Made by a program: the position numbers and the translations under genes
The notes under the pieces: generated by a model
What the model was told of the DNA's origin: nothing
The model's input: only the letters and a program-made list of their open reading frames with translations
The model's database searches: none
DNA from: Paracoccaceae bacterium
Lineage (GTDB): Bacteria > Pseudomonadota > Alphaproteobacteria > Rhodobacterales > Rhodobacteraceae
Direction: 5' to 3'
Assembly (NCBI GenBank): GCA_024642725.1
Contig: JAHEAO010000009.1
Span: 1 to 64,000 of the forward strand
DNA: 64,000 nucleotides
In this document: piece after piece, positions 36,259-56,196 of the stretch
How the letters are laid out: each line of letters starts with the position of its first letter
Position numbering within the stretch: position 1 is the stretch's first letter

Positions 36259-36275
36259 AGTGGCGTGAGTGGCCG

Positions 36276-37584: not shown

Positions 37585-38964
37585 ATGAACAGCAGCATTC
37601 AGGCAAACGATCTGACCGAGGTCATCGAATCGGACCGCGCGCATCTGTGGCACCACCTGATGCAACACAAGCCGCTGGAGACAAACGATCCGCGCATCAT
37701 CGTCGAAGGCAAGGGCATGCGGGTCTGGGACGCGACAGGCAAGGAACATCTCGACGCCGTTTCGGGCGCGGTCTGGACGGTCAATGTCGGCTACGGGCGC
37801 GAGTCGATCGCCAATGCCGTGCGCGACCAGCTGATCAAGATGAACTACTTCGCACAGTCCGCAGGCTCGATCCCCGGCTCGAACTTCGCCAAGCGCCTGA
37901 CATCGAAGATGCCGGGCCTCAGCCGCGTCTACTATGCCAACTCGGGTTCGGAAGCGAATGAGAAGGTCTTCAAGATGGTCCGCCAGATCGGCCATCGTCA
38001 CCATGGCGGCAAGAAGACCAAGATCCTGTATCGCGAACGCGATTACCACGGCACCACGATCACCTGCCTGTCTGCGGGCGGCCAGCCCGAACGCAACGCG
38101 CTTTACGGCCCCTTCACACCGGGCTTCATCGAAGTCCCGCACTGCCTTGAATACCGCAAGCAATGGGACGTCGAGGATTACGGGCGCCGCGCTGCGGATG
38201 CGATCGAAGAGGTGATCCTGCGCGAGGGCCCGGATGAGATCGGCCTGCTCTGCCTCGAACCCGTCACCGCTGGCGGCGGCGTCATCACCCCGCCCGAAGG
38301 CTACTGGGACCGGGTGCAGGAGATCTGCAGGAAATACGACATCCTGCTGCATATCGACGAGGTCGTCTGCGGCGTCGGTCGTACCGGCACATGGTTCGGC
38401 TACCAGAATTACGGCGTTCAGCCCGATTTCGTCACCATGGCCAAAGGTGTCGCCTCCGGCTATGCGGCGATTTCCTGCATGGTCACGACCGAGGCCGTGT
38501 TCGAGCAGTTCAAGGACGCCCCCGACGACAAGCTTTCATACTTCCGCGACATCTCGACCTTCGGCGGCTGCGCCTCCGGTCCGGCTGCCGCGCTGGAGAA
38601 CATGCGTATCATCGAGGATGAGGACCTTCTGAACAATACGCTGAGAATGGGCGAGCGGATGATGAAGAACCTCCACGGGCTGATGGACAAGCACCGCGTT
38701 GTTGGCGATGTCCGCGGCAAGGGCCTGTTCTGCGGTGCCGAACTGGTCGCCGACCGGACGACCAAGGAACCGGCCGAAGAAAAGAAGGTCCAGGCTGTCG
38801 TCGCCGACTGCATGGCGCAGGGCGTCATCATCGGCATGACCAACCGGTCGCTGCCGGGGCTCAACAACACGCTGTGCTTCTCGCCGGCGCTGATCGCGAC
38901 GCCCGATGACATCGACCAGATCACCGATGCTGTCGACAAGGCGCTGACCCGGGTCTTCAGCTGA
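37585..38964 (+). CDS. tpa: Taurine--pyruvate aminotransferase
   Basis: Class III PLP aminotransferase of 459 residues that converts taurine and pyruvate to sulfoacetaldehyde and alanine. The start at 37585 follows AAGGA. The cofactor lysine is Lys287 in TMAKGVASGYAAIS; other marks are YYANSGSEANEKVFKMVRQ, HIDEVVCGVGRTG and the N-terminal HLWHHLMQHKP typical of Tpa. Position between tauABC and tauR and upstream of xsc makes taurine the likely amine, over the many other substrates of this class. Confidence 0.92.
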   Translation: MNSSIQANDLTEVIESDRAHLWHHLMQHKPLETNDPRIIVEGKGMRVWDATGKEHLDAVSGAVWTVNVGYGRESIANAVRDQLIKMNYFAQSAGSIPGSNFAKRLTSKMPGLSRVYYANSGSEANEKVFKMVRQIGHRHHGGKKTKILYRERDYHGTTITCLSAGGQPERNALYGPFTPGFIEVPHCLEYRKQWDVEDYGRRAADAIEEVILREGPDEIGLLCLEPVTAGGGVITPPEGYWDRVQEICRKYDILLHIDEVVCGVGRTGTWFGYQNYGVQPDFVTMAKGVASGYAAISCMVTTEAVFEQFKDAPDDKLSYFRDISTFGGCASGPAAALENMRIIEDEDLLNNTLRMGERMMKNLHGLMDKHRVVGDVRGKGLFCGAELVADRTTKEPAEEKKVQAVVADCMAQGVIIGMTNRSLPGLNNTLCFSPALIATPDDIDQITDAVDKALTRVFS

Positions 38965-39000
38965 AAGGTCTTGCGCCGCGGGCTGCGCCCGCGTCGCGGT

Positions 39001-39173
39001 GCCTCCGGCGGGGATATTTAGCGACGACTGATGAAGACACCCTGCCAGTTTCCTGACAGGGTGCATCACTCGTCACGGTCATCGGCGTCCCCGCCTGTAC
39101 CGTGCAAACACTCAATCAGGTCGCGGTTAACAATCCATTACATCAGTCGTCCTCAAATATCCCCGCCGGAGGC
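39001..39173. repeat. 173-bp element with 33-bp inverted ends (repeat copies C and D)
   Basis: The ends, 39001-39033 and 39141-39173, are inverted repeats identical at 30 of 33 positions; both contain GCCTCCGGCGGGGATATTT, the repeat also found at 29884. The 107-bp centre has a hairpin (39038-39063) and no gene. The element fills much of the 311-bp tpa/tauR gap. Before it lies GGCTGCGCCC-type GC sequence, after it GC hairpins (for example GACGCC/GGCGTC at 39215-39229). It could be two repeat units that face each other, or a small non-coding mobile element. Confidence 0.75.
39038..39063 (+). terminator. Hairpin after tpa, inside the inverted-repeat element
   Basis: CACCCTG/CAGGGTG (39038-39044 with 39057-39063) plus an inner CAG/CTG pair form a stable stem with a TTTC loop, 73 bases after tpa. 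No T-run follows. It may end the tpa transcript. Confidence 0.45.
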
Positions 39174-39240
39174 GTTACCCGAGCCGCCCCGCGGGGTGGC
39201 GTGACAAAAGACGTGACGCCGCAGGCGTCTCCGTTTACCT

Positions 39241-39272
39241 ATAAGTCCAGTTGCAAAGCCGGATAGGGCCAA
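39241..39272 (-). promoter_or_regulatory. Inverted-orientation TauR-type repeats over the tauR start
   Basis: On the minus strand TTGGCCCTAT (39263-39272) and CTGGACTTAT (39241-39250) lie 22 bases apart and just before the tauR ATG at 39276, covering its ribosome-binding region. The orientation is opposite to the sites before tpa and xsc. This would fit autorepression of tauR. The second half-site has one mismatch in CTGG. Confidence 0.5.
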
Positions 39273-39275
39273 TTC

Positions 39276-40748
39276 ATGCAGATCGCCGAGGCCAATTTCA
39301 TCCTCGACCCGACCTTCGACGGCACCCTGCAACAGCAGATCCAGCGCATGGTGAGCGAGGGTATTCTGGCCGGGCGTTTCCGCCCCGGCCAGCGCCTGCC
39401 CTCCAGCCGCGGGCTGGCACGGCACCTTGGTGTCAGCCGGATCACCGTAACCCTCGCCTATACCGAATTGCTGTCAGGGGATTACCTGACCGCCCGTGGA
39501 CGTTCCGGTTACTATGTATCCGACACCGCCCCACGACCGTCGGATTTCAACGTGACCCGCAGCGCGCGCACCGACACCGTCGACTGGGCCCGCGCCATCG
39601 GCCAGCGCTATTCCGGCCAGCCCTCGATCAGCAAGCCACCGGACTGGCGCCGCTACCCCTATCCCTTCATCTACGGGCAGGCCGACGCCACGCTCTTCGA
39701 CCACCAGAACTGGCGGCAATGCGCATTGCAGGCGCTTGGCCAGCGGGATTTCGAGGCGCTCACCACCGATTATTTCGAACGCGACGACCCCAGGCTCGTT
39801 GAATTCATCGCCCGCCATATCCTGCCCCGCCGCGGTATCGACGCCCGCCCCGAGGAAATCCTGCTGACCCTGGGCGCCCAGAACGCGCTTTGGCTCTCGG
39901 CACAGATCCTGCTGACCCAGCGCCGCACCGCCGCGATGGAAAACCCCAGCTATCCCGGCCTGCGCGATATCCTCAGCCAGACCCGTTGCAACCTGATTTC
40001 CGTCGATGTCGATGACGACGGCCTGCCGCCCGACGACCTGCCGCATGGTGTCGACGTCGTTTTCACCACGCCCAGCCACCATTGCCCGACCAACGCCACC
40101 CTTCCCGTCGAACGCCGCCGCCACCTGCTCGATCTTGCCGACAGGAACGATTTCCTGCTGGTCGAGGATGACTATGAGTTTGAGATGTCCTTCCTGTCTC
40201 CGCCCTCCCCGGCGCTCAAATCGCTCGATAAGCACGGCAGGGTGATCTATATCGGGTCGTTCTCGAAATCGCTGTTTCCCGGCCTTCGCCTCGGCTACCT
40301 GGTCGGTTCCGAACCGTTCATCCGCGAGGCCCGCGCGCTCCGCGCCACGGTCCTGCGCCACCCGCCGGGCCATATCCAGCGCACCGCCGCCTATTTCCTG
40401 TCGCTCGGCCATTACGATGCACAGATCAACCGGATCGGGCAGGCCTACAAGACCCGCCGGGCGGTGATGGATCAGGCGATCCGCGACCATGGGCTGAGCG
40501 TGGCGGGACGCGACAGCTTCGGCGGTTCCAGCTTCTGGATGCGCGCACCCGATGACGTCAACACGTCGCTGCTGACGATGGAATTGCGCGATCAGGGGGT
40601 TCTGATCGAACCGGGGCGGATTTTCTTTGACCAGCATGACGGCCCGGCGAATTACTACCGGCTCGCCTATTCCTCGATCCCGGCTGCGAAAATCCCCGCC
40701 GGCATCGCATTGATTGCCAAGGCCCTGACCCGAACTGGACCTAACTAG
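39276..40748 (+). CDS. tauR: MocR-type transcriptional activator TauR
   Basis: GntR/MocR-family regulator of 490 residues: an N-terminal winged helix-turn-helix (about 15-80; ILAGRFRPGQRLPSSRGLAR, LGVSRITVTLAYTEL) joined to an aminotransferase class I-like domain. The PLP-binding lysine is Lys331 in IGSFSKSLFPGLRLGYL, and SYPGLRDIL and EDDYEFEMSFL also fit the family. In R. capsulatus TauR activates taurine genes. The position between tpa and xsc and the matching repeat pairs support the same role here. Confidence 0.88.
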   Translation: MQIAEANFILDPTFDGTLQQQIQRMVSEGILAGRFRPGQRLPSSRGLARHLGVSRITVTLAYTELLSGDYLTARGRSGYYVSDTAPRPSDFNVTRSARTDTVDWARAIGQRYSGQPSISKPPDWRRYPYPFIYGQADATLFDHQNWRQCALQALGQRDFEALTTDYFERDDPRLVEFIARHILPRRGIDARPEEILLTLGAQNALWLSAQILLTQRRTAAMENPSYPGLRDILSQTRCNLISVDVDDDGLPPDDLPHGVDVVFTTPSHHCPTNATLPVERRRHLLDLADRNDFLLVEDDYEFEMSFLSPPSPALKSLDKHGRVIYIGSFSKSLFPGLRLGYLVGSEPFIREARALRATVLRHPPGHIQRTAAYFLSLGHYDAQINRIGQAYKTRRAVMDQAIRDHGLSVAGRDSFGGSSFWMRAPDDVNTSLLTMELRDQGVLIEPGRIFFDQHDGPANYYRLAYSSIPAAKIPAGIALIAKALTRTGPN

Positions 40749-40767
40749 ACACAGGAACTGGCCCTAA
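40735..40767 (+). promoter_or_regulatory. TauR-type direct repeats upstream of xsc
   Basis: CTGGACCTAA (40735-40744) and CTGGCCCTAA (40758-40767) are direct repeats 23 bases apart, the same step as the pair before tpa. The first overlaps the last codons of tauR. They lie 77 bases before the xsc start, fitting activation of xsc-tauE-ackA from its own promoter. Confidence 0.7.
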
Positions 40768-40777
40768 CCCAACTGCT

Positions 40778-40798
40778 TGGCAAAGGCGTAGTTTGCCA
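40778..40798. promoter_or_regulatory. Inverted repeat in the xsc leader
   Basis: TGGCAAA (40778-40784) and TTTGCCA (40792-40798) form a perfect 7-bp inverted repeat with a 7-base spacer, 11 bases after the TauR-type repeats and 45 bases before xsc. It could be a second protein-binding site or an mRNA hairpin. The spacing does not fit a sigma-54 promoter. Confidence 0.45.
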
Positions 40799-40843
40799 CA
40801 GACAACTCCGCCGCCGCGGTTCAGCCCATCCGAGGATTTCCCG

Positions 40844-42622
40844 ATGAAAATGACCACCGAAGAAGCTTTCGTAAAAACGCTCCAGATGCACGGGATCGAA
40901 CATGCCTTCGGCATCATCGGTTCCGCCTTCATGCCGATCTCGGACAATTTTCCGGCCGCGGGCATCACCTTCTGGGACTGCGCCCATGAGGGGTCCGGCG
41001 GCATGATGGCCGACGGCTTTACCCGCGCTTCGGGCAAGATGTGCATGATGATCGCGCAAAACGGCCCCGGCATCACCAATTTCGTGACTGCCGTCAAAAC
41101 CGCCTACTGGAACCACACGCCCTTGCTGCTGGTCACGCCGCAGGCCGCCAACAAGACCATCGGCCAGGGTGGCTTTCAGGAAGTCGAACAGATGGCGCTC
41201 TTCAAGGACATGGTCGCCTATCAGGAAGAGGTCCGCGACCCGTCCCGCGTCGCCGAGGTGCTGAACCGCGTGATCCTGCAGGCGCATCGCCGCTCTGCCC
41301 CGGCTCAGATCAACATGCCGCGCGATTACTGGACGCAGGTGATCGACATCGACCTTCCCGCGGTCGTCGAGTTCGAACGCCCCTCGGGCGGCGATAACGC
41401 CATCGCCGAGGCCGCAAGACTGCTGTCCTCGGCCAAGTTTCCCGTCATCCTGAACGGAGCCGGTGTGGTTCTTGCCGGCGCGATCCCTGCCTCGGCGAAA
41501 CTGGCCGAGCGGCTCGATGCGCCGGTTTGCTGCGGCTACCAGCACAATGATGCCTTCCCCGGCTCGCATCCGCTGTTCGCCGGTCCCCTCGGCTACAACG
41601 GGTCAAAGGCGGGCATGGAACTGATTGCGCAAGCCGACGTCGTTCTCTGCCTCGGCACAAGGCTCAACCCGTTCTCGACACTGCCCGGCTATGGCATCGA
41701 CTATTGGCCCAAGACCGCGAAGATCATTCAGGTCGACCTGAACCCCGACCGGATCGGGCTGACCAAGAAGGTCACCGTCGGCATCGTCGGCGATGCAAAG
41801 AAAGTCGCCACCGCGATTCTCGACAAGCTTTCGGGCACCGCCGGCGATGCCGGCCGCGCCGAACGCAAAGCCAAGATCGCCCAAACCAAATCCGCATGGG
41901 CGCAGCAACTGTCCAGCATGGACCACGAGGATGACGATCCGGGCACCACTTGGAACGAACGCGCCCGCAAGGATAAGCCCGACTGGATGAGCCCCCGGAT
42001 GGCGTGGCGGGCAATCCAGGCGGCCTTGCCAAAAGAGGCGATCATTTCCTCGGACATCGGCAACAACTGCGCCATCGGCAACGCCTATCCGACATTTGAA
42101 AGCCCGCGCAAATACCTTGCCCCCGGTCTCTTCGGGCCATGCGGCTATGGCCTGCCCGCCGTCATCGGCGCCAAGATCGGCTGCCCCGACACGCCGGTCG
42201 TCGGTTTTTCGGGCGACGGGGCTTTCGGCATCGCAGTCACCGAACTGACCGCCATAGGGCGCAAGGAATGGCCCGCGATCACGCAGGTGGTCTTCCGCAA
42301 TTACCAGTGGGGGGCCGAAAAGCGCAACTCGACGCTCTGGTATGACGACAATTTCGTCGGCACCGAACTGGACGAAGACGTCAGTTATGCCGGGATTGCC
42401 AAGGCCTGTGGCCTGCAGGGCGTCATCGCCCGCACGATGGAGGACCTGACCGAGGCCCTGCGCAAGGCCATCGACGACCAGATGAAGCATGGCAAGACCA
42501 CACTCATCGAAGCGATGATCAATCAGGAACTGGGCGAACCGTTCCGCCGCGACGCGATGAAGAAACCGGTCTCGGTTGCCGGGATTTCCAAATCCGACAT
42601 GCGCCCGCAGAAAGGCGCATGA
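40844..42622 (+). CDS. xsc: Sulfoacetaldehyde acetyltransferase
   Basis: Thiamine-diphosphate enzyme of 592 residues that splits sulfoacetaldehyde with phosphate into acetyl phosphate and sulfite, the carbon-sulfur bond-breaking step. The start at 40844 follows CGAGGA. The three-domain layout of the acetolactate-synthase superfamily is visible: N-terminal EEAFVKTLQMHGIEHAFGI with the cofactor Glu in CAHEGSGGMMADG, and the C-terminal ThDP motif beginning GDGAFGIAVTEL and running to NYQWGAEKRNSTLW, which is specific for Xsc. It heads the xsc-tauE-ackA unit. Confidence 0.94.
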   Translation: MKMTTEEAFVKTLQMHGIEHAFGIIGSAFMPISDNFPAAGITFWDCAHEGSGGMMADGFTRASGKMCMMIAQNGPGITNFVTAVKTAYWNHTPLLLVTPQAANKTIGQGGFQEVEQMALFKDMVAYQEEVRDPSRVAEVLNRVILQAHRRSAPAQINMPRDYWTQVIDIDLPAVVEFERPSGGDNAIAEAARLLSSAKFPVILNGAGVVLAGAIPASAKLAERLDAPVCCGYQHNDAFPGSHPLFAGPLGYNGSKAGMELIAQADVVLCLGTRLNPFSTLPGYGIDYWPKTAKIIQVDLNPDRIGLTKKVTVGIVGDAKKVATAILDKLSGTAGDAGRAERKAKIAQTKSAWAQQLSSMDHEDDDPGTTWNERARKDKPDWMSPRMAWRAIQAALPKEAIISSDIGNNCAIGNAYPTFESPRKYLAPGLFGPCGYGLPAVIGAKIGCPDTPVVGFSGDGAFGIAVTELTAIGRKEWPAITQVVFRNYQWGAEKRNSTLWYDDNFVGTELDEDVSYAGIAKACGLQGVIARTMEDLTEALRKAIDDQMKHGKTTLIEAMINQELGEPFRRDAMKKPVSVAGISKSDMRPQKGA

Positions 42623-42625
42623 CCC

Positions 42626-43375
42626 ATGACGCTGCCATTCGGCCTGACCGGCGGGCTGGCAGCGGTGCTGGCGGTGGCGCTTCTGGCCGCCGCCTATGTG
42701 CGCGGCTACTCGGGCTTTGGCTTCTCGGCGATCTTCATCGCCTTCGCCGCGCTCTTCATCAATCCGGTCCCCCTGATCCCGGTGGTCTTCATGTGTGAAA
42801 TCGCGATGACCGCCTTTCAGGCCCGGGGCATCCGGCCGCATATCGACTGGCCCCGCGCCCTGATGCTTCTGGCGGGTGCCGCACTGGCAACGATCCCCTC
42901 GATCTACGTCATGGCCCGCCTGTCCGAGGATACCGCCCGCCTCACGATCTCGACCCTGATCCTTGCGCTCAGCCTGCTGCTCCTGTCTGGCTGGCGGCTC
43001 AAACGCCCGATCGGGCGCGCCGGCCACGTCGGGGTCGGCGTCGCCTCGGGCATGGCCAACAGCGCCGGCGTCGGCGGCCTGCCGGTCGCGGCCTTCATGG
43101 CGGCACAGCCGATCCCGGCGGCCACCTTCCGCGCCACGATGGTCGCCTACCTGACCGGAATTGACGTGATGGCGATGCCGGTGATGTGGGCCAACGGGCT
43201 TGTGCACATGGGAACGCTCTTCGCCGCCGCCCTCGCCTTCCCGATCCTCGGCCTCGGGGTCTGGCTCGGCGGCCGCCAGTTTCTGTCCGCCTCGCCGCAG
43301 CAGTTCCGCCGCGTCGCGGTCACGCTCCTGCTCTGCCTGTCGCTCATCGGGATCGCCCGGGCGGTGATGGCATGA
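42626..43375 (+). CDS. tauE: TSUP-family (TauE/SafE) membrane exporter
   Basis: Inner-membrane protein of 249 residues with about eight hydrophobic segments, in the sulfite exporter TauE/SafE family; the family fold shows as two halves starting near YVRGYSGFGFSAIFIAF and VGVASGMANSAGVGGLPVAAF. It follows xsc by 3 bases and overlaps ackA (ATGA). Position makes export of sulfite from Xsc the likely task. The family also moves sulfolactate or other organosulfonates, so the substrate is inferred. Confidence 0.8.
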   Translation: MTLPFGLTGGLAAVLAVALLAAAYVRGYSGFGFSAIFIAFAALFINPVPLIPVVFMCEIAMTAFQARGIRPHIDWPRALMLLAGAALATIPSIYVMARLSEDTARLTISTLILALSLLLLSGWRLKRPIGRAGHVGVGVASGMANSAGVGGLPVAAFMAAQPIPAATFRATMVAYLTGIDVMAMPVMWANGLVHMGTLFAAALAFPILGLGVWLGGRQFLSASPQQFRRVAVTLLLCLSLIGIARAVMA

Positions 43376-44526
43376 CGGCCCGGACCGACATTCTGGTTCT
43401 CAACGCGGGCTCCTCCTCGATCAAGTTCGCGGTGTTCGGGCCGGACCTCGCGCGCAAACTTTCCGGCAGCGCGACCGAAATCGGCGGCGCGTCACAGCTC
43501 GAAATCGGCGGCAAGGTCACCTCGGAACATTTCGCCAGCCACAAGGCCGCGCTGTCCGCGATCCTGAACGCACTGGCCGGCCACGGCGTCAACACCCAGA
43601 CGCTCGCCGCCGCCGCACACCGCGTCGTGCATGGCGGCCGGAACCTGACAAAGCCCGTGCGCATCACCCCCGAGGTTCTGACAGAGATCACCAACTGCTC
43701 TCCGCTGGCGCCCCTGCACAACCCCCATAACCTCGCCGCGATCGAGGCGCTGGCCGATATCGCCCCCGACCTGCCGCAATACGCCAGCTTCGACACCTCC
43801 TTTCATGCCACCAATCCGAAAGTGGCCACGCGCTACGCCATCCCCAAGACGATGGAGACACGCGGCATCCGGCGCTACGGCTTCCACGGCCTGAGCTATG
43901 CCAGCCTCGTGCGCAACCTGCCCGAGATATCGGGCCAGAAACTGCCCTCCCGCCTGCTGGCCTTCCACCTTGGCAACGGCGCCTCGATCTGCGCCATCCG
44001 GAACGGCGAAAGCATCGCGACCACGATGGGCTACTCGCCGCTCGACGGGCTGACGATGGGCACGCGCTCGGGCGGGATCGACGCCAATGCGGTCCTGCGT
44101 CTGGTCGAGGATTACGGCGTCGCCCGCACCAAGGCGATCCTGAACAACGAAAGCGGGCTTCTGGGGCTGTCGGGCGGCACTTCGGACATGCGCAAGCTGA
44201 TGCTCGAACACAGCGCCGACAGCGATTTCGCAGTGGAACATTTCGTCTACTGGACGGTTCGTCACGCCGGCGGGCTGATCGCCGCGATGGAAGGGCTGGA
44301 CGCCATCGCCTTCACCGGCGGCATCGGTGAAAACGCCTTTGGCGTGCGCGCCCGCATCCTGCGCGCTTTCGGCTGGCTCGGCGTGGCGATGGACCCCGAC
44401 TACAACGTCAAGGGCGCCACCCGCCTGCATGCCGATGTCTCGCGCGTTGCGATCTGGGTCGTGCCAGCCGAAGAAGAACGGATGATCGCCGCCGATGCGC
44501 TGGACCTGATGCAGGAGCAATCATGA
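43372..44526 (+). CDS. ackA: Acetate kinase
   Basis: Kinase of 384 residues that turns acetyl phosphate and ADP into acetate and ATP. Motifs: LNAGSSSIKFAVF, HRVVHGG, FDTSFHATNP, RRYGFHGLSY, HLGNGASICAI and the C-terminal FTGGIGENAFGVRARI. Its ATG overlaps the tauE stop. In this operon it would gain ATP directly from the acetyl phosphate made by Xsc, an addition to the usual Pta route. It is convergent with pta. Confidence 0.94.
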   Translation: MTARTDILVLNAGSSSIKFAVFGPDLARKLSGSATEIGGASQLEIGGKVTSEHFASHKAALSAILNALAGHGVNTQTLAAAAHRVVHGGRNLTKPVRITPEVLTEITNCSPLAPLHNPHNLAAIEALADIAPDLPQYASFDTSFHATNPKVATRYAIPKTMETRGIRRYGFHGLSYASLVRNLPEISGQKLPSRLLAFHLGNGASICAIRNGESIATTMGYSPLDGLTMGTRSGGIDANAVLRLVEDYGVARTKAILNNESGLLGLSGGTSDMRKLMLEHSADSDFAVEHFVYWTVRHAGGLIAAMEGLDAIAFTGGIGENAFGVRARILRAFGWLGVAMDPDYNVKGATRLHADVSRVAIWVVPAEEERMIAADALDLMQEQS

Positions 44527-46659: not shown

Positions 46660-46728
46660 TGCCGCATCTCATGGAAATACCGCTCGCCCGTGACCGGCTT
46701 TCGCCGGAAAGCTGCTAGAAAGGCCCCT

Positions 46729-49548
46729 ATGAATCAGCCCAAGATCAACCTCTCGCCCGCCGTTTCCGACGAGATCCGCCAGACCACCTGCTACATGTGC
46801 GCCTGTCGCTGCGGCATCAACGTGCACATCAAAGGCGGCGAGGTCAGCTATATCGAGGGCAACCGGGACCATCCCGTCAACAAGGGCGTGCTCTGCGCCA
46901 AGGGCTCGGCGGGCATCATGCAACACAACGCGCCGTCGCGGCTGCGCGCGCCGCTCAAACGCACCGGCCCCCGCGGCTCCGGAGAATTCACGGAAATCAG
47001 CTGGGAAGAGGCGCTGACCCTCGCCACCGAATGGCTGAAGCCGATCCGCGACACCGCCCCTGAAAGGCTCGCCTTCTTCACCGGCCGCGACCAGAGCCAA
47101 AGCTTCACAAGCTGGTGGGCGCAGGCCTATGGCACCCCGAATTACGCCGCGCATGGCGGGTTCTGTTCCGTCAACATGGCCGCCGCCGGCATCTACACGA
47201 TGGGCGGCGCCTTCTGGGAATTCGGCCAGCCCGACTGGGACCGCACCAAGCTCTTCATGATCTTCGGCGTCGCCGAGGATCACGATTCGAACCCGATCAA
47301 GATCGGACTCGGCAAGCTGAAGAAGCGCGGCGCGAAAGTCATCGGCGTCAACCCGATCCGCTCGGGCTACAACGCCGTTGCCGACGATTGGGTGGGTATC
47401 ACGCCGGGCACCGATGGCCTGTTCATCCTCGCCCTCGTCCACGAACTCCTGAAGGCCGGCAAGATCGACCTCGACTACCTTGCCCGCTGGACCAACGCGC
47501 CGGTGCTGATCGACTGCGATCCGAAATCGCCGCGCCACGGGTTGTTGTTGCGGGACGGGGATGGAAAAGACCTCGTAATCGACAGCAAGACCGGCAAACC
47601 CGCGCCCTTCGACCAGAAAGGCGTGCGGCCCGACCTTGGCGGCAAGCACCGCACCAAGGGCGTGACCCATGTCACCGTGTTCCAGCGCATGGCCGAACGC
47701 TACCTCTTGCCCGAATACGGTCCCGAAGCCGTCGCCGAACAAACCGGCATCCCGGCGGCCAGGATCAGACGGATCGCTGCCGAACTGGCCGATGTCGCCT
47801 TTAACCAGGCGATTGAAATAAAACAGGAATGGACTGATTTCCGCGGCGAAACCCACAAGACGATGACCGGCCGGCCCGTCAGCTTTCACGCCATGCGCGG
47901 CATTTCCGCCCATTCCAACGGCTTCCAAACCGCCCGCGCGCTGCACATGCTGCAAATCCTGCTGGGCAGCGTCGAAACCCCCGGCGGCTTCCGCTTCAAA
48001 CCGCCCTACCCCAAACCCGCCACGGCACATCCCAAACCGCATTGCAAGGTCACGCCCGGCAAGCCGCTCGACGGCCCGCATCTGGGCTACCCGCAAGGCC
48101 CCGACGACCTCTGCCTGACACCCGATGGTCAGCCAGCCCGCATCGACAAGGCGTTTACCTGGGAAAACCCGATGTCGGCGCATGGGCTGATGCATATGGT
48201 CATCTCGAACGCCCATGCGGGCGATCCCTACAAGATCGACACCCTGTTCCTCTACATGGCAAACATGGCGTGGAATTCCTCGATGAACACGCGCGGCGTC
48301 ATCGACATGCTGACCGACACCGATGCCAACGGCGACTATGTGATCCCGCGCATCATCTACTCGGATGCCTATTCGTCGGAAATGGTCGCCTATGCCGACC
48401 TGATCCTGCCCGACACGACCTATCTCGAACGCCACGACTGCATCAGCCTGCTCGACCGCCCGATCTGCGAGGCAGAGGCCGCCGCCGATGCCATCCGCTG
48501 GCCGGTCGTCGAACCCGACCGCGATGTGCGCGGCTTTCAGTCGGTGCTTTGCGATCTTGGCCACCGGCTGCGCCTGCCGGGTTTCGTGGCCGAGGATGGC
48601 AGCGCGAAATTCAAGGACTATGCCGATTACATGGTGAACCACCAGCGCCGCCCCGGTGTTGGCCCGCTGATCGGCTGGCGCGGCACCGATGGCCAATCCA
48701 CCGGACGCGGAGAGGTCAATCCCGACCAGCTCGACCGGTATATCGAGAACGGCGGCTTTGCCGTCGCCCATATCCCGCAGGCGGCGCAGTTCTACAAGCC
48801 GTGGAACAAGGCCTATCAGGATTGGGCCGTGCAGATCGGCCTCTACGACGCGCCGCAGCCCTATCTTTTTCAGCTTTACGCCGAACCCCTGCGCCGCTTC
48901 CAACTTGCCGCCGAAGGTCAGGGCAGCCGCCAGCCGCCCGAACATCTGCGCGAACGGATCAAGGCGACGCTCGATCCGCTGCCGATCTGGTATCCGCCGT
49001 TCGAGGATGGCCACTCCGACCCGGTTGAATATCCGGTCCACGCCCTGACCCAGCGCCCGATGGCAATGTATCATTCATGGGGCTCGCAAAACGCCTGGCT
49101 GCGCCAGATCCACGGACATAACCCGCTCTATGTCCCGACAGACATCTGGGAGGCCAACGCCTTTACCGAAGGCGACTGGGCAGAGGTCACCTCGCCTCAT
49201 GGCACAATCACGGTCCCCGTCGCGCTGATGGCGGCCCTCAACCCGTCAACGGTCTGGACATGGAACGCCATCGGCAAGCGCAAAGGCGCATGGGCTCTGG
49301 ATGACGCCGCGCCCGAGGCGACGCGCGGGTTCCTGCTGAACCACCTGATCCATGAACTCCTGCCACCGAAAGGCGACGGCTTGCGCTGGACCAATTCCGA
49401 CCCGGTGACCGGACAGGCCGCGTGGTTCGACCTTCGCGTAAAAATCCGCAAGGTCCCCGCCCCAACCGAATCGCACCCCGTGCTGCCACCGATCAAGTCA
49501 CCCGTCGGTAAAGGCAGCGCCCGGAAGATACCGGAGGTAAAAAAATGA
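46729..49548 (+). CDS. soeA: Cytoplasmic sulfite dehydrogenase, molybdopterin subunit SoeA
   Basis: Molybdenum oxidoreductase of 939 residues in the DMSO-reductase superfamily, proposed SoeA, which oxidises sulfite to sulfate at the cytoplasmic side. The [4Fe-4S] motif is at the N-terminus (TTCYMCACRCGINVH, then KGVLCAKG). There is no Tat signal, in agreement with a cytoplasmic enzyme. Molybdopterin-binding regions include GVAEDHDSNPIKIG and HGLMHMVISNAHAGDPY. It precedes a four-cluster Fe-S protein and a DmsC-like anchor, the SoeABC set, and sits beside the sulfite-producing taurine genes. Other substrates (polysulfide, DMSO) are less likely. Confidence 0.87.
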   Translation: MNQPKINLSPAVSDEIRQTTCYMCACRCGINVHIKGGEVSYIEGNRDHPVNKGVLCAKGSAGIMQHNAPSRLRAPLKRTGPRGSGEFTEISWEEALTLATEWLKPIRDTAPERLAFFTGRDQSQSFTSWWAQAYGTPNYAAHGGFCSVNMAAAGIYTMGGAFWEFGQPDWDRTKLFMIFGVAEDHDSNPIKIGLGKLKKRGAKVIGVNPIRSGYNAVADDWVGITPGTDGLFILALVHELLKAGKIDLDYLARWTNAPVLIDCDPKSPRHGLLLRDGDGKDLVIDSKTGKPAPFDQKGVRPDLGGKHRTKGVTHVTVFQRMAERYLLPEYGPEAVAEQTGIPAARIRRIAAELADVAFNQAIEIKQEWTDFRGETHKTMTGRPVSFHAMRGISAHSNGFQTARALHMLQILLGSVETPGGFRFKPPYPKPATAHPKPHCKVTPGKPLDGPHLGYPQGPDDLCLTPDGQPARIDKAFTWENPMSAHGLMHMVISNAHAGDPYKIDTLFLYMANMAWNSSMNTRGVIDMLTDTDANGDYVIPRIIYSDAYSSEMVAYADLILPDTTYLERHDCISLLDRPICEAEAAADAIRWPVVEPDRDVRGFQSVLCDLGHRLRLPGFVAEDGSAKFKDYADYMVNHQRRPGVGPLIGWRGTDGQSTGRGEVNPDQLDRYIENGGFAVAHIPQAAQFYKPWNKAYQDWAVQIGLYDAPQPYLFQLYAEPLRRFQLAAEGQGSRQPPEHLRERIKATLDPLPIWYPPFEDGHSDPVEYPVHALTQRPMAMYHSWGSQNAWLRQIHGHNPLYVPTDIWEANAFTEGDWAEVTSPHGTITVPVALMAALNPSTVWTWNAIGKRKGAWALDDAAPEATRGFLLNHLIHELLPPKGDGLRWTNSDPVTGQAAWFDLRVKIRKVPAPTESHPVLPPIKSPVGKGSARKIPEVKK

Positions 49549-49646
49549 CTCAACGTTGCGCCGTCGAAACGTACAAACACGGGCTTCCAGCCAAGTACAA
49601 AACGTCCCTTTACGGTTGTACCAACTTCACAGAGGCCCATTCGTGA
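49545..49646 (+). CDS. 33-residue small protein between soeA and soeB
   Basis: A small reading frame with the signs of real translation: GGAGG 8 bases before its ATG, an ATGA overlap with the soeA stop (49545-49548) and a GTGA overlap with the soeB start (49643-49646). The product begins MTQRCAVETYKHG, is basic and rich in Tyr, Thr and Lys, has cysteines at 5 and 25, and has no signal or membrane segment. I recognise no family. It could be a small subunit or assembly factor of SoeABC, or a peptide that only couples soeB translation to soeA. Confidence 0.6.
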   Translation: MTQRCAVETYKHGLPAKYKTSLYGCTNFTEAHS

Positions 49647-50386
49647 CCAGTTTGCCGACCCATACCGAAAAGAAGCTCGGCCTCGTCATCGACCTCGACA
49701 TCTGCGTCGGCTGCCACGCCTGCGTCACCGCCTGCAAAGGCTGGAACGATCAAGGGTATGGCGCGCCGCTCTCGGACCAGAAACCCTATGGTGATGAACC
49801 CGAGGGCACCTTCCTGAATCGCGTGCACAGCTTTGAAATTACACCCGAAAATGGCCCTGCGCAGATCGTCCACTTCCCCAAATCCTGCCTGCATTGCGAC
49901 GATGCGCCTTGCGTCACCGTCTGCCCCACCGGCGCCAGCTACAAGCGGTCCGAGGACGGCATTGTCCTCGTCAACGAAGACGCCTGCATCGGCTGCGGCC
50001 TTTGCGCATGGGCCTGCCCCTACGGCGCCCGCGAAATGGACCAAGCCGCTGGAATCATGAAGAAATGCACGCTGTGCGTTGACCGTATATACAACGAAAA
50101 CCTCCCCGAGGCCGACCGCGAACCCGCCTGTGTTCGTACCTGCCCAACCGGGGCGCGGGCCTTTGGCGACCTTGCCGATCCGACCAGCGCAGTCAGCAAG
50201 TCGGTTGCTGATCGCGGCGGTTTCGACCTGATGCCCGAACTTGGAACGAAGCCAGTAAACCAGTATTTATTCCCTCGCATCAAGGATTTCGAAGGCGACC
50301 TTGATGTTCTCTCTCCGCTCCTGGACATCCAACCCGAGGCGACCGGAATCTCGGGATGGCTCGACAAACTCTTGGGAAAACTCTGA
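49643..50386 (+). CDS. soeB: Cytoplasmic sulfite dehydrogenase, iron-sulfur subunit SoeB
   Basis: Electron-transfer subunit of 247 residues from the GTG at 49643 (AGAGG 8 bases upstream); the next residues TSLPTHTEKKLGLVIDLD fit the family N-terminus. Four [4Fe-4S] cysteine groups follow in DmsB order: CVGCHACVTAC, CLHCDDAPCVTVCPTGA, CIGCGLCAWACPYGA and CTLCVDR paired with CVRTCPTGARAFG. It passes electrons from SoeA to the membrane subunit SoeC. Its stop overlaps the soeC start by one base (TGATG). Confidence 0.88.
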   Translation: MTSLPTHTEKKLGLVIDLDICVGCHACVTACKGWNDQGYGAPLSDQKPYGDEPEGTFLNRVHSFEITPENGPAQIVHFPKSCLHCDDAPCVTVCPTGASYKRSEDGIVLVNEDACIGCGLCAWACPYGAREMDQAAGIMKKCTLCVDRIYNENLPEADREPACVRTCPTGARAFGDLADPTSAVSKSVADRGGFDLMPELGTKPVNQYLFPRIKDFEGDLDVLSPLLDIQPEATGISGWLDKLLGKL

Positions 50387-51261
50387 TGAATCCGGCTCCA
50401 TCCGTCATATTGTTCACGGTTCTGTCCGGCGCCGGATTCGGTCTGCTCGGCTTCCTTGGCCTTGGCGTTATCTCGCCTACAGGATTGATTGCATTCAGTT
50501 ATTTTACGCTCGCCTTTGCCATGGCTGTCGGCGGCCTCCTCGCCTCGACGCTTCATCTCGGCAATCCCCGCAATGCGCTGAAGGCCTTCAGCCAGTGGCA
50601 AACCAGTTGGCTCTCCCGCGAGGCATGGCTGGCCGTCCTGACACTTGCCGTCATGGGACTCTACGCCATCGGCGCAATCTTCTTTGGCAAACACCTGTCT
50701 GTTCTTGGCATCCTGGGGGCAGACCTTTCGTTCCTGACGGTGTTCGCTACATCAATGATCTACGCCCAGCTCAAGACTGTTCCCCGTTGGAACCAGTGGC
50801 TTACACCATTGTTATTCCTATCCTTCTCCCTGTCCGCCGCGACCATGCTGACCGCCCAGAACGGGCTCGCCGTCGCGCCGCTGGCAGTCACGGGAGTACT
50901 CCTGATCCTGCACTGGCTATCGGGCGACAAGAGGTTTTCCGCCTCGGGCAGCACCATCGAGACAGCCACCGGACTCGGCGGCATCGGCAAGGTCAGGCTG
51001 CTTGCGCCACCCCACACCGGGTCCAATTATCTCATGAAAGAGATGATCTATGTCGTCGGTCGAAAACACGCCCTGCGCCTGCGCTGGATCACTCTGGCAC
51101 TTGCCGTGGTGCTTCCGGCGCTGATCCTGCTTCTTGCCCCCGCCTCGGTGCTTACAACAGCTTTGGCCTTCATCCTGCACCTGATCGGAGCCTTCGCCGC
51201 GCGCTGGCTGTTCTTTGCAGAGGCCGAGCATGTTGTCGGTCTATATTACGGTAAACGCTGA
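50386..51261 (+). CDS. soeC: Sulfite dehydrogenase membrane anchor SoeC (DmsC family)
   Basis: Inner-membrane anchor of 291 residues with about eight hydrophobic segments, in the DmsC family, which would give electrons from sulfite to the quinone pool. It starts MNPAPSVILFTVLSGAGFGLLG, the usual DmsC-like start. A cytoplasmic loop of about 40 residues (LSGDKRFSASGSTIETATG) lies past the middle. It ends 5 bases from the convergent dehalogenase stop with no visible terminator. Confidence 0.85.
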   Translation: MNPAPSVILFTVLSGAGFGLLGFLGLGVISPTGLIAFSYFTLAFAMAVGGLLASTLHLGNPRNALKAFSQWQTSWLSREAWLAVLTLAVMGLYAIGAIFFGKHLSVLGILGADLSFLTVFATSMIYAQLKTVPRWNQWLTPLLFLSFSLSAATMLTAQNGLAVAPLAVTGVLLILHWLSGDKRFSASGSTIETATGLGGIGKVRLLAPPHTGSNYLMKEMIYVVGRKHALRLRWITLALAVVLPALILLLAPASVLTTALAFILHLIGAFAARWLFFAEAEHVVGLYYGKR

Positions 51262-51266
51262 GTTTT

Positions 51267-54200
51267 CTACAGATCGACCTCGACCACACCGCCCTCGTTC
51301 AACGCGCGACTCTGGCACAGGATGATCGCCGTCTCACGCTGCTTTTTCGACAGCACGAAGTCGCGATGCTCCACCTCGCCAGAGATCAGCCCGCATTTGC
51401 AGACACCGCAAATGCCATCCGAACATTTCACATCGACATGTATACCGTTCTCCGCGAGCACATCCGTCGCCGTCCTGTCCGCAGGCACCATCAACTCTCG
51501 CCCGGATCGCGCCAGCCGCAACGTGAACGGGTGGTTAACCCAGTCCGGGACCTCTGGCACCGAGAAGTATTCCAGGTGCCGTGCATCCTCTGGAAAACCT
51601 TGTTTTTCTGCAGCTTGAATGACCGAGTTCATGTATCTTTCGGGTCCGCATGTATAGACATGCCAGCCCTCCTGGCAACCGGCGAGAACCCGATCCAGAT
51701 CTGCGCGAGACCCGTCGGTCGAAAAATGCAGAAACACATGTTCGGACCAGGGAACCGCCTTCAGGTCGTCCAGATACCCTGCGGTTTCGGGGGATCTGGC
51801 CGAGTAATGCAACTCGAACTCCGCCCCGATCCTATGCAGGCGGTGGGCCATGGCGATCATCGGCGTGATGCCGATACCACCCCCCATCAGGAATGTCCGA
51901 GATGCGGCTTCAACAAGAGGAAAGTGGTTGATCGGCTTGGAAATAAACACCTTTCGGCCTTCCGAGAAGATCCGGTGCATCAATTTCGACCCGCCCCGGC
52001 CAACATCTTCGCGCAATACGCCGATCTGGTATTTCGACCGATCCGCGGGATCGCCCGACATTGAATACTGCCGCAGGAATTCCGGCGCGACGACAATGTC
52101 GAGATGCGCGCCCGCCGTCCATTCCGGCAGATCAGAACCATCGACGGCTCGAAATTCGTATTTTGTCACATCCGGCGTCATCCGTTGTGCCTTGCTGACT
52201 TCGACCCTGATCACTGGCGCATCGTCATAGCCGGGATAGCGATGCACCAGCCGGTCTTCGCCGCGCCCCAGTCTCTCTTGATATTCCTCTGCCGTTACAA
52301 GCGCTTGATAGGCTTCGATGCCCTTCTCCCTGTCCATCGGGAAAGGATAGGGCCATGGATGCGGTGCAAGTGGCGCAGGATAGACCGCGAGTGTCTGGTC
52401 CTCGTATTTCAGGTCCAGCTCCCTTTGCAATCCACGCGCATTGACCTCGTGTTTCGTTGGCCGATAAGCGCCGTCTGCATCCAGTTCCAGATCCCACCAC
52501 CATTTCTTGACCGGGTTCAGCCCGCCATTGCCCACGGCGTCGTCCAGACGCGCGAGCACAGGTGCGGCCGCCGGAATGTTCATCGCAGCCCACCGAAAAG
52601 GCGCCTCAGCGAAAAGCCCTTCCAGGTTCCACGGACAGGTCTTCATGCATCGCCCGCACATCGCTCCGCCGGGTGTCGTGATACGGTAGGTCGCACATTT
52701 CTGACTGTCCGACTTCCAGATTTCGTAGCCGTTGAACATCAGCTTTGGACCGGCCGTAATCGCCCCCGAAGGGCATTCCCGAGCGCATTTGTTACAAGAC
52801 TCGCAGAAATTCTGCAGCCCGAAATCAATCGGCTTGTCATGGGCCAGAGGCAGGTCGGTCGTCACGACGCCGGATTTCAACCTCGGTCCAAGGTAAGGAT
52901 TGAGGATCACTTCACCGATGCGACTGACCTCACCAAGCCCGGACAGCAACAGCAACGGTGGCTGCAAAACCTCTCCGTCCATCACGCTGTGCGCTTTAGC
53001 TTTGTATCCCAACCTTCTGATTTGCTTTGCGATCACGCCACCAAGTAAGGAGAATCTGAGATATGCGCGCATGGATTGCGCGACCGAAATCCAGTCATCA
53101 CCCGATGCACCCTCCATGGTCTCGTAACCCTGGTCGATGATCATGCTGATGGCATTGTCATGCGGCGGCGTGATGGGTTCGCCAGTGGCGTCATGCGAAT
53201 ACCACGCCCACTCCGGACAGCGCGAGATCCCGACCGCATCCACACCCAGAAAATAGCTTGCAGCCTTGATCAGGTCGGCCGCCCCCTTGGGGTCCAGCAG
53301 CGTTTTCGCCGGCGCGGATTCTCCATCCTGCAAAAGGACAAACGCCCCCAAAGCGCGCCGCTGCGCCATGGAAGGCGCTGCTTTTCGCGCATAATGTCCG
53401 CCCTTCGCGCCCTCCTGCAGCGCCTTTCCCATGTCACCGAACTGTGCCCGAGCGAACATGTCGGCGCGCTTGGGGACCCGCGCCACATTCGCCTCGTCGA
53501 TATAAGTAGTCGGCTTACCGACCCGCTTGAGCGCCTCGAACGGATGCCCCCCGTCCGCATATCTGCGCCGCGCATAGGGATCGCGGCTCAGCGCGCTCTT
53601 CGCGGAATTCTTACCGAGCCACCACGCCAACCCCTTGACCCGGATCGCGGACTGCTTTGCCATCGGCGCAAGCGGCATGTCGGGGGTCAGCGCGAAATTC
53701 GTCGTCACCCCCGCCAAGCCAAACCTCATGCCCAAATAGGGGTTAACCAGCACCCCGCCTTCGGCTGTCGCCAGCCCCGAGGCAACGGCAAGCCGGTTCA
53801 GATCGACATCGCTCGACGTCATGCTGTGGGCTTTCGCGTCAAACCCCAGCACGCGCAGGTAATTTGCGATAACCACTGCCGTTTCCGTGGCCCGCAGGCA
53901 GGCCCGCTCCGCCTGGGCATCCATGATCCAGTCGGCACCCGGTTCCTCGGGCTTCGGATCGCGGTAATGCTCATAGAGAAAGACGATCGCGTGACCGTGG
54001 CCCGCGATCGTTGCCGGAGGAGCCTCCATCGACTCCTTGAGATCCGCCATGATCACATCAATTCCGGATGCCAGGGTCTTGGTCTGCCGGGTCCGAAGAT
54101 CCTCTGCCAGCCGATCAATATCAGGGTTCCTTATCGGCTCGGCCAGCCGGTCCGCTTCATCCAGAAGGCAGGTTCCAACCATCGACGCATCCGAAAAATA

Positions 54201-54479
54201 ACCAAATGCTTTCAGATGGTTAGATCGCTCTGTTGGATCGGCGGGACACTCTGATTGCACCTTGGCAACCAGCCCGTCACGGATCGCATCCATCATCGCC
54301 TGATACTCTGCCATCGCATTCACGACGGATTGCGGACTGTCGGGTCGGTGAAAGCTCAGCCGGCGCATTGGCGGGACGTCCCCGATCTGCGCTGCCGAGT
54401 TGCGGCGTGCCAGCCGCTCCAACGGATAGGGGCCCAGATGAACCGGCCTGTTGCGGTCCGAAAAGATGCGGAGCGTCAT
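51267..54479 (-). CDS. rdhA: Self-sufficient reductive dehalogenase fused to a flavin/2Fe-2S reductase
   Basis: Multidomain enzyme of 1070 residues, of the BhbA/NpRdhA catabolic (oxygen-tolerant, cytoplasmic) type, which removes halogen from an aromatic compound using cobalamin. There is no Tat signal. Two B12-domain-like halves are seen: AKAHSM...NPYLGMRFG (215-254) and AKAHSV...NPYLGPRLK (494-535). Two [4Fe-4S] motifs follow: Cys559/562/565/569 and Cys595/608/611/615. From about 755 a phthalate-dioxygenase-reductase-like part has RQYSMSGDP (803-811), GGGIGITPM and a plant-type 2Fe-2S site Cys1019/1024/1027/1055. Tyr427 could be the catalytic tyrosine. The sulfatase gene lies 10 bases upstream. 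The halogenated substrate is unknown. Confidence 0.9.
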   Translation of the reverse strand: MTLRIFSDRNRPVHLGPYPLERLARRNSAAQIGDVPPMRRLSFHRPDSPQSVVNAMAEYQAMMDAIRDGLVAKVQSECPADPTERSNHLKAFGYFSDASMVGTCLLDEADRLAEPIRNPDIDRLAEDLRTRQTKTLASGIDVIMADLKESMEAPPATIAGHGHAIVFLYEHYRDPKPEEPGADWIMDAQAERACLRATETAVVIANYLRVLGFDAKAHSMTSSDVDLNRLAVASGLATAEGGVLVNPYLGMRFGLAGVTTNFALTPDMPLAPMAKQSAIRVKGLAWWLGKNSAKSALSRDPYARRRYADGGHPFEALKRVGKPTTYIDEANVARVPKRADMFARAQFGDMGKALQEGAKGGHYARKAAPSMAQRRALGAFVLLQDGESAPAKTLLDPKGAADLIKAASYFLGVDAVGISRCPEWAWYSHDATGEPITPPHDNAISMIIDQGYETMEGASGDDWISVAQSMRAYLRFSLLGGVIAKQIRRLGYKAKAHSVMDGEVLQPPLLLLSGLGEVSRIGEVILNPYLGPRLKSGVVTTDLPLAHDKPIDFGLQNFCESCNKCARECPSGAITAGPKLMFNGYEIWKSDSQKCATYRITTPGGAMCGRCMKTCPWNLEGLFAEAPFRWAAMNIPAAAPVLARLDDAVGNGGLNPVKKWWWDLELDADGAYRPTKHEVNARGLQRELDLKYEDQTLAVYPAPLAPHPWPYPFPMDREKGIEAYQALVTAEEYQERLGRGEDRLVHRYPGYDDAPVIRVEVSKAQRMTPDVTKYEFRAVDGSDLPEWTAGAHLDIVVAPEFLRQYSMSGDPADRSKYQIGVLREDVGRGGSKLMHRIFSEGRKVFISKPINHFPLVEAASRTFLMGGGIGITPMIAMAHRLHRIGAEFELHYSARSPETAGYLDDLKAVPWSEHVFLHFSTDGSRADLDRVLAGCQEGWHVYTCGPERYMNSVIQAAEKQGFPEDARHLEYFSVPEVPDWVNHPFTLRLARSGRELMVPADRTATDVLAENGIHVDVKCSDGICGVCKCGLISGEVEHRDFVLSKKQRETAIILCQSRALNEGGVVEVDL

Positions 54480-54489
54480 CGGCGAACCC

Positions 54490-56196
54490 TCATTCCGTCT
54501 TGCCTTCCGGCTCCGGCTCGGCCGAATCCAAATGGTTCTGCCGAGCCTTGCCAGTCAGTTTGGCCCGCACATCCGCAGAAACTTCGCTTTGATCGAACAC
54601 ACCAAGCAGAATGCCCTTGCGGTCGGATCCCCCACGACTTGCCAGGATCTCGGCATCCGAACGTGTCGTCCGCTGCGACATCCGCCGCCCCCAGGTCGCG
54701 AGCCGATCATACATCATCGCTACAATATCGGCATGATCCGGGCTGGCCCCAAGGTCATTGTATTCGTCAGGGTCCGCCTGCAAATCGAAAAGCATCGGCC
54801 GGAATCCCCCTTCGGCATGCATCATCTTCCAGCTTTTGTCGGCTACCATGAACAAGCGCGCGTCACGTGGCGAAACGCCAAGCCTGGCCGCCATCCCCGT
54901 CGCGGAATAGTCGTATTCGCTGATAGCAAATTCTCTCCAACTTGCCGGCGCTTCGCCCCTCAGGAACGGTAATAGGGAATGCCCCTCTAGGATGTGCCCC
55001 GGAATCTCCTGACCCGATACCTCGACAAAAGTTGCCGAGAGATCGATCGCTTCCACCAATTCGTCGCAGACCGTCCCGCGCGTGCCATCCGCCTTGGCAG
55101 AGGGATCAAAGATGATCAGCGGAACCTTTGCCGAGGCATCGTGAAACAGGTCCTTCTCGCCCAGCCAGTGATCGCCCAGATAATCCCCATGATCCGAGGT
55201 CAGGACAATCAGCGTATCTTCGATCCGTCCGGACTGTCTCATATGCCCGAGCAGCCGACCCAGCTCGTCATCGCATTGCTTTATTAATCCCATATAGGTG
55301 GGAATGACCGCATCTCGGACTTCATCGCGGGAAAAGGCGCGGCCAATCGGATTGGCCATGAACTGTGCATAGACCGGATGCGGATTGGCGCGCTCGCAAT
55401 CCCGACGTTTTGCCTGAGGAACATGTTGCTTGCCGAACATCGCGTGGTAGGGCGCCGGGACAATATACGGCCAGTGCGGTTTGATGTAAGAGAGATGCGC
55501 AAGCCATGGCTTGTCGCTCGCCCCCCTGTCATCCAGAAAGTCGATCATACGACTGGTCAGCCAAGGCGTCTCGGAATCCTCGTTGCGGATATTGGCCGGA
55601 CGGGCCGCGTGCTTCATGAACCAGCCGGACGCCATCTCCCCCGCTTCGTCGACACCGGCATTCGCATAGTCCTGCCAGGGGTTGGTTCCATCATATCCTT
55701 GCAAATTCAGGTAGGCGTTATAAGGCGATCGCTGCTGGTCGTAGAACCCGTCCGGCCCTTCCGCCCAAAGCCCGTCATCGCGCACATGGACATCGAATCC
55801 GCATTCAGACACCCGCGCGCCGATCACGCCCCCACGAGAGATGCCCAGTCGCTCCATCCCTGCTTCGTCTACGCGCATATGGGTCTTGCCCACAAGCCAG
55901 CATTCCATGCCGGCCTTTCTTAGATGGTCGCCAAGTGTCATCTCGCCGACTTTCAGAGGCACATTGTTCCACGCTGCACCATGACTTTGCACGTAGCGCC
56001 CGGTATAGGTGCTCATTCGCGACGCACCACATACCGGAGATTGCACATAGCAGCGCGAAAACCGAACCCCGTTCTCCGCCAGCCAATCCATGTTCGGCGT
56101 CCGAAGATGCGGATGACCCGCGCAACTGAGATAATCCCACCTCAGTTGGTCATACATGATGAACAATATGTTTTTGACATTGCGCCGCATGTCCAA
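54490..56196 (-). CDS. Sulfatase/phosphonate monoester hydrolase-family enzyme
   Basis: Hydrolase of 568 residues in the alkaline phosphatase superfamily. The formylglycine site is Cys56 in SPVCGASRMSTYTGR (CxASR form). Metal-site residues appear in LFIMYDQLRWD (Asp16) and VLTSDHGDYLGDH. The segments YIKPHWPYIVPAPYHAMFG and IKQCDDELGRLL are close to phosphonate monoester hydrolases, which also cleave sulfate esters. There is no signal peptide, so it acts in the cytoplasm. It is the first gene of a two-gene unit with the dehalogenase. The maturation enzyme (FGE or anSME) is not in the window. Confidence 0.88.
   Translation of the reverse strand: MDMRRNVKNILFIMYDQLRWDYLSCAGHPHLRTPNMDWLAENGVRFSRCYVQSPVCGASRMSTYTGRYVQSHGAAWNNVPLKVGEMTLGDHLRKAGMECWLVGKTHMRVDEAGMERLGISRGGVIGARVSECGFDVHVRDDGLWAEGPDGFYDQQRSPYNAYLNLQGYDGTNPWQDYANAGVDEAGEMASGWFMKHAARPANIRNEDSETPWLTSRMIDFLDDRGASDKPWLAHLSYIKPHWPYIVPAPYHAMFGKQHVPQAKRRDCERANPHPVYAQFMANPIGRAFSRDEVRDAVIPTYMGLIKQCDDELGRLLGHMRQSGRIEDTLIVLTSDHGDYLGDHWLGEKDLFHDASAKVPLIIFDPSAKADGTRGTVCDELVEAIDLSATFVEVSGQEIPGHILEGHSLLPFLRGEAPASWREFAISEYDYSATGMAARLGVSPRDARLFMVADKSWKMMHAEGGFRPMLFDLQADPDEYNDLGASPDHADIVAMMYDRLATWGRRMSQRTTRSDAEILASRGGSDRKGILLGVFDQSEVSADVRAKLTGKARQNHLDSAEPEPEGKTE

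Follow-up and report, generated by a model that had tools for sequence, protein, structure and literature searches.

The stretch of DNA analysed here, hereafter the window, comprises 64,000 nucleotides from a Paracoccaceae bacterium (GCA_024642725.1, contig JAHEAO010000009.1, positions 1 to 64,000) and carries on its minus strand a two-gene unit, in which a gene for a predicted arylsulfatase of the SpAS2 type (54490..56196) is followed, in the direction of transcription, by rdhA (51267..54479), the gene of a reductive dehalogenase (RdhA). The sulfatase gene, which is the first of the unit, gives an open reading frame (ORF) of 568 amino acids from a TTG codon or of 566 amino acids from an in-frame ATG at 56190, the start that we prefer, and rdhA encodes 1070 amino acids from an ATG. 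Read directly from the sequence, the junction consists of the sulfatase stop codon, a gap of ten bases (54480..54489, minus strand) and the ATG of rdhA, with a GAGGG run resembling a ribosome-binding site overlapping the stop. Coordinates and strand are as described in the first-pass annotation, which had placed the two genes 10 bases apart on one strand, and the arrangement is operon-like. The unit contains only these two genes and presumably has a promoter of its own; a scan for promoter and terminator consensus sites gave 3 and 6 sites, no better than the 2.4 and 4.6 found in shuffled sequences. Solved relatives cover nearly the full length of both proteins.

RdhA scores 205.6 bits against the TIGR02486 model (cut-off 160.35), and its best solved relatives are 6ZXU (543 bits) and 4RAS (NpRdhA, 542 bits). 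The model matches two stretches of the protein and the alignment with NpRdhA spans residues 2-113 and 160-736, a pattern that indicates the vestigial duplicated N-terminal domain. The cobalamin-binding core with its two [4Fe-4S] sites is also recognisable: eight cysteines of the ligand region (C559, C562, C565, C569, C595, C608, C611 and C615) are invariant in 12/12 aligned fused RdhAs and lie, together with R599, in codons 559-615, i.e., at 52635..52805 on the minus strand as calculated from the residue numbers. In an ungapped part of the alignment, S469, Y473, K535 and R599 correspond to NpRdhA S422, Y426, K488 and R552, where S422, K488 and R552 bind the hydroxyl group of the substrate and Y426 is the proton donor (PMC7565698); these four residues and 12 Fe-S cysteines are invariant across the same twelve proteins. 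At the C-terminus, residues 756-1061 match the phthalate dioxygenase reductase 2PIA, with a Fer2 domain at 990-1059 for a [2Fe-2S] centre, so that the protein has a fused flavin/NAD(P)H reductase of its own and the self-sufficiency claimed in the first-pass annotation is supported. The Pfam Dehalogenase model PF13486 matched nothing in the genome of the window and nothing in any of 14 control genomes; its silence is therefore uninformative and the model was dropped.

Judged from its sequence, the rdhA product is thus a fused, self-sufficient catabolic reductive dehalogenase. A respiratory enzyme is unlikely because of the fused reductase, because neither a hydrophobic nor a twin-arginine translocation (TAT) leader is visible by eye and because no RdhB anchor gene is seen alongside: the flanking ORFs received other names or, for the one at 50356-51261, had no NCBIfam match, although no search was aimed at RdhB. 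Every catabolic RdhA so far characterised is reported to be specific for ortho-halogenated phenols, and JtRdhA, which is driven by NADPH and is active with and without air, accepts brominated and iodinated phenols and is only inhibited by chlorinated ones (PMC10463259). A Roseobacter RdhA that debrominates 2,6-dibromophenol was described in 2026 (PMC13101508), in a paper that does not contain the word "sulfatase". The RdhA of the window is accordingly predicted to dehalogenate ortho-halophenols with NAD(P)H. Several genomes of the same family carry a second TIGR02486 match besides their fused RdhA, in short frames of approximately 390-460 amino acids that form a separate, unfused kind (e.g., G038:C8:31416-32009 and G055:C1:2887337-2887906).

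The sulfatase scores 135.8 bits against PF00884, with the domain starting at residue 8, and its closest characterised relative found is SpAS2 (4UPL, 780 bits over residues 7-550). Its formylglycine site reads C56-G-A-S-R60 (numbering from the TTG start) and fits the C-x-P/A/S-x-R motif; among 42 sulfatase relatives, the one of the window included, 34 have CGASR, 5 CGSSR and 3 CGPSR. The expected metal and catalytic residues are present as D16, Q17, D335, H336 and K348, which align with 4UPL and are invariant in 4/4 sequences, their roles being read across from PMC12421950. SpAS2 favours aryl sulfate approximately 500-fold over phosphonate, with reported values of 2.1e5 for p-nitrophenyl sulfate against 4.0e2 for a phosphonate and 5.6 for phosphate (PMC12421950), and the protein of the window reaches only 303 bits against the PehA ester hydrolase model NF045661 (cut-off 900). 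Since these kinetics and this score both speak against it, a phosphonate or phosphodiester is unlikely to be the main substrate; this corrects the first-pass annotation, which had kept a phosphonate ester as an alternative, and leaves a predicted arylsulfatase activity of the SpAS2 type as the likelier one. As had been noted there, no export signal is visible by eye, and the protein starts with the core strand that aligns to 4UPL residue 17.

We then considered whether the two genes stand together elsewhere, using 188 distinct RdhA loci (198 examined) drawn from the window, from 80 titled contigs (the best 80 of 566 relatives) and from the fused RdhAs of 112 further genomes of the family and 4 genomes of the class. 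Five RdhAs of this set are less than 60% identical to that of the window, and one (L267, 38%) may be of another kind. An SpAS2-type sulfatase gene lies directly upstream of rdhA on the same strand in 4 of the 177 distinct loci for which 2 kb or more of upstream sequence was available: the window, the Alphaproteobacteria metagenome-assembled genome (MAG) Vin_25 (L122), the Hyphomicrobiales MAG IP29b_bin.146 (L135) and genome G064 (L141). Within 10 kb, such a gene is found at 10 of the 188 loci, i.e., at these four and at L095, L112 (the same locus as L146, from Rhodobacteraceae HIMB11), L142, L144, L145 and L201; nine of the ten sulfatase genes are on the rdhA strand, and that of L144 is downstream. 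The first-pass annotation had named confinement to this one strain as an outcome that would count against it, and the neighbour search excludes such uniqueness, with the direct pairs of L122, L135 and L141/G064 joined by the same-strand runs of L112 and L095. We recognised no description of the pair in the literature searched; both gene types have been reported from single cells of Desulfatiglans, with no link drawn between them in the part of that source available (PMC6129605).

The Rhodobacteraceae are a family with many marine species, in which RdhA genes, fused and unfused, are common: 110 of 295 sampled genomes have one above the reductive dehalogenase cut-off, among the matches listed. 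When an open frame of 650 amino acids or more is required, 113 of the 295 have a listed fused RdhA, ten genomes whose best match lay between E 1e-18 and 1e-32 being counted as without; the sulfatase is present, among the matches listed, in 137. Genes this frequent could become neighbours by chance, or be gathered in a catabolic island with the sulfatase serving in sulfur scavenging, and the taurine-type sulfur genes found elsewhere in the window would agree with this reading. We consider this unlikely, given that a sulfatase gene lies within 10 kb in 7 of the 113 genomes where uniform placement predicts 0.77 (P 1.6e-5; 6 and P 1.5e-4 with the window left out) and directly upstream in 2 where 0.006 are expected (one without the window, P 0.006). 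The gene junctions argue in the same direction: the two genes are 10 bases apart in the window, 5 in L122 and 6 in L135, and all three junctions have a run rich in purines at the stop codon of the sulfatase. At the level of whole genomes, the sulfatase occurs in 84 of the 113 genomes with a listed fused RdhA and in 53 of the 182 others (odds ratio 7.1), whereas choline sulfatase, used as a control, is commoner (224/295) yet more weakly associated (95/113 versus 129/182; odds ratio 2.2, p 0.01). These association tests take genomes as independent and ignore genome size, habitat and tree.

Quick trees were computed from 42 sulfatases and 40 RdhAs chosen from the sequences obtained, with the set of four paired sulfatases and the RdhA set fixed before the trees were seen and two three-row sulfatase sets defined afterwards. 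A single clade of all four paired sulfatases was rejected (p 0.0005), as was a clade joining L141 with L122 and L135 (p 0.004); a clade of window, L122 and L135 was not rejected for the sulfatases (p 0.55) and was weakly rejected for the RdhAs (p 0.034). On the simplest reading of these trees, the pair would have arisen at least twice, perhaps three times.

Other linked loci place the pair in larger gene clusters. L122 (1766-23197) and L135 (1838-22983) share a cluster with a dipeptide-type ATP-binding cassette (ABC) importer, the sulfatase, rdhA, an alpha/beta hydrolase, an MMPL protein, an aminotransferase, an amidohydrolase, an AraC-type regulator and a choline-sulfatase-like gene; a Rieske oxygenase comes next in L135, at the point where the available stretch of L122 ends. 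One may speculate that this cluster serves an aromatic amino acid bearing both halogen and sulfate, for example a bromotyrosine sulfate. HIMB11 has a run on one strand (L112, 3210-13213; L146, 2413-12416) of a sulfatase, an alkylsulfatase-type metallo-beta-lactamase, the TRAP component DctM, an NMT1-like binding protein that we take to be a TAXI protein, a short-chain dehydrogenase/reductase and rdhA, and further sulfatase genes lie just past it (L146, 15855-19999). The RdhA of genome G176, a member of the family sample, is the same as that of HIMB11, which suggests that the genome of the window is akin to the Rhodobacteraceae. In L095, a one-strand run consists of a sulfatase, DctM (73% identical), TAXI (78%) and rdhA. 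SpAS2-type sulfatase genes also adjoin TRAP-TAXI-like genes, with no rdhA alongside, in genomes G263 (L147/L284), G120 (L152) and G199 (L154), whose binding proteins are 37-46% identical; these TRAP-TAXI-like genes are candidate aryl sulfate importers, and transporter genes in such a position fit cytoplasmic sulfatases that act on imported anions.

Taking these observations together, we consider it probable that the unit forms a cytoplasmic module that processes halogenated aryl sulfates in two steps; both genes would be co-transcribed, and both enzymes would act on one molecule. An aryl sulfate anion would enter the cell, where a formylglycine-generating enzyme (FGE) would activate the arylsulfatase to its formylglycine form; the genome has one FGE-family gene above the Pfam cut-off, and no anaerobic sulfatase-maturing enzyme was found in it at E 0.001. 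The arylsulfatase, by homology, would then hydrolyse the sulfate ester and expose the phenol. Electrons from NAD(P)H would reach cob(I)alamin by way of the flavin and Fe-S centres that RdhA itself carries, and the enzyme, as suggested by JtRdhA, NpRdhA and the conserved residues, would put hydrogen in place of a halogen, most probably bromine, that stands ortho to the newly exposed hydroxyl group; CobN is encoded in the genome, consistent with its own cobalamin synthesis. If the substrate is shared, desulfation should come before debromination, because catabolic RdhAs bind the free phenol hydroxyl and the residues that hold it (S469, K535 and R599) are conserved. The dehalogenated phenol could finally go to ring cleavage through protocatechuate 3,4-dioxygenase, for which the genome has two PcaH (beta-subunit) matches above cut-off.

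Several observations weigh against such a module. No importer or ring-cleavage gene adjoins the unit among the window neighbours scanned. No SpAS2-type sulfatase lies within 10 kb at 178 of the 188 distinct RdhA loci, in the stretches examined (at 46 of the loci these extend over less than 8 kb to one side or to both); either the partner is therefore encoded elsewhere, or free bromophenols are the substrates of many RdhAs. Among the matches listed, 53 of the 137 sulfatase-bearing genomes of the family have no fused RdhA, and one of them, G263, holds the copy nearest to the sulfatase of the window in the family sample (72%). In a class sample of 385 genomes, RdhA was matched at E 1e-150 in 13, over its full length in 9, and the sulfatase in 49; the two were close together in the window only, so that no new pair was added. 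That choline sulfatase is associated with RdhA at all means that lifestyle probably accounts for some of the co-occurrence, and choline-sulfatase-like genes stand within 6 kb of RdhA at two loci of the family sample (L244 and L267), neither of them upstream on the same strand. It is also possible that the trees record one old pairing that was later separated in most lines. A more distant choline-sulfatase-like gene was seen 3 kb upstream in L096. On plasmids, 8 records have RdhA and 66 the sulfatase; the 60 of these 66 that were listed include no adjacent pair, and the two rows with both genes have them approximately 351 kb (Nitratireductor OM-1) and approximately 43 kb (Yoonia SS1-5) apart.

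The many unlinked loci and the sulfatase genomes without a listed fused RdhA could alternatively mean that the two genes belong to a co-regulated set for algal aromatics in general and meet different molecules, plain aryl sulfates for the one and free bromophenols for the other. The importer-linked sulfatases of G263, G120 and G199 agree with this, standing as they do without rdhA; in G120 and G199 a fused RdhA is encoded on another contig. We regard this explanation as a serious one, if clearly less probable than a shared substrate, because four direct upstream cases on the same strand, with sulfatases that do not form one clade, point to a tighter link, and because RdhA substrates are the very products expected when bromophenol sulfates are desulfated.

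Among natural compounds, those that would best suit the two-step module are sulfated bromophenols, for example the red algal lanosol-4,7-disulfate. Lanosol-4,7-disulfate is 2,3-dibromo-5-hydroxybenzyl-1',4-disulfate and is among the major metabolites of a Vertebrata lanosa extract (PMC9322897); by its name, the bromine at C3 therefore adjoins the sulfate at C4. Sulfated bromophenols have also been proposed to be inactive storage forms in algae (PMC9322897), from which one could imagine that the unit merely removes bromide from toxic bromophenols freed from this store and feeds nothing into carbon metabolism, as the lack of a ring-cleavage gene among the scanned neighbours might also suggest. 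Such a detoxification role seems very improbable to us: L122 and L135 combine an importer with genes of a catabolic type, namely for an amidohydrolase and an aminotransferase, joined in L135 by the Rieske oxygenase; protocatechuate dioxygenases are encoded in the genome of the window; and removing sulfate from the less active form would be a strange strategy for detoxification.

The occurrence of similar pairs in a few other bacteria suggests a route for using sulfated, brominated algal compounds. Algal bromophenols are partly sulfate esters and the characterised catabolic dehalogenases want a free phenol, so that a linked sulfatase would explain how bacteria gain access to them, and would suggest a natural substrate for the RdhA genes of the family as well as a natural role for SpAS2-type arylsulfatases. 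More broadly, and only tentatively, Alphaproteobacteria, of which many come from the sea judging by their record titles, may have repeatedly built a module that imports, unmasks and debrominates, with a cytoplasmic arylsulfatase freeing the phenol hydroxyl for a cobalamin dehalogenase; we lean slightly against this wider claim. If it were true, aerobic heterotrophs would link the marine cycles of organosulfates and organobromine compounds, and the TRAP-TAXI carriers of some clusters would be aryl sulfate importers.

As for the surroundings of the unit, three ORFs on the plus strand (46690-51261) form a molybdopterin oxidoreductase unit, which converges on rdhA and ends 5 bases from the end of that gene. 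Its large ORF has the thiosulfate reductase PhsA as best NCBIfam match, at 197 of 694 bits, and its 301-amino-acid ORF is the one at 50356-51261. On the other flank, an MsbA-like ABC protein (below the cut-off of that model) starts at 56374 on the plus strand. Farther away, a taurine-type block (34123-44526) contains a TauC-like permease (below model cut-off), a class-III aminotransferase, a MocR-family regulator, a TauE-type exporter and acetate kinase, and inside it a 609-amino-acid ORF (40793-42622) may, guessing from this context, encode a sulfoacetaldehyde acetyltransferase. The region around this block appears rich in organosulfur genes.

Compared with known systems, each protein of the unit is an ordinary member of its family. 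JtRdhA of the marine bacterium Jhaorihella thermophila is described with the same domain order as the RdhA of the window, including a fused phthalate-dioxygenase-reductase-like domain, and it has no TAT signal (PMC10463259), of which none is visible by eye in the window protein either; the word "sulfatase" is absent from the main text of that paper. NpRdhA of Nitratireductor pacificus (4RAS/6ZXU) shares S422, Y426, K488 and R552 with the RdhA of the window, but lacks a reductase domain (PMC10463259) and has A419 where the window has V466. BhbA of Comamonas sp. 7D-2 is likewise a full-length fused RdhA encoded in a catabolic gene cluster (PMC10463259), and record NC_021077.1 contains an RdhA with 51% identity to ours over its whole length; its cluster, however, serves bromoxynil, and its plasmid is not among the 60 listed of the 66 sulfatase-bearing plasmid records. 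SpAS2 of Silicibacter pomeroyi resembles our sulfatase along almost its entire length, with the same aspartate-glutamine and SDHG surroundings, and differs in its nucleophile motif, CGSSR instead of CGASR. Next to these known families, the new element is the pairing of the two genes, which is not confined to the source strain.

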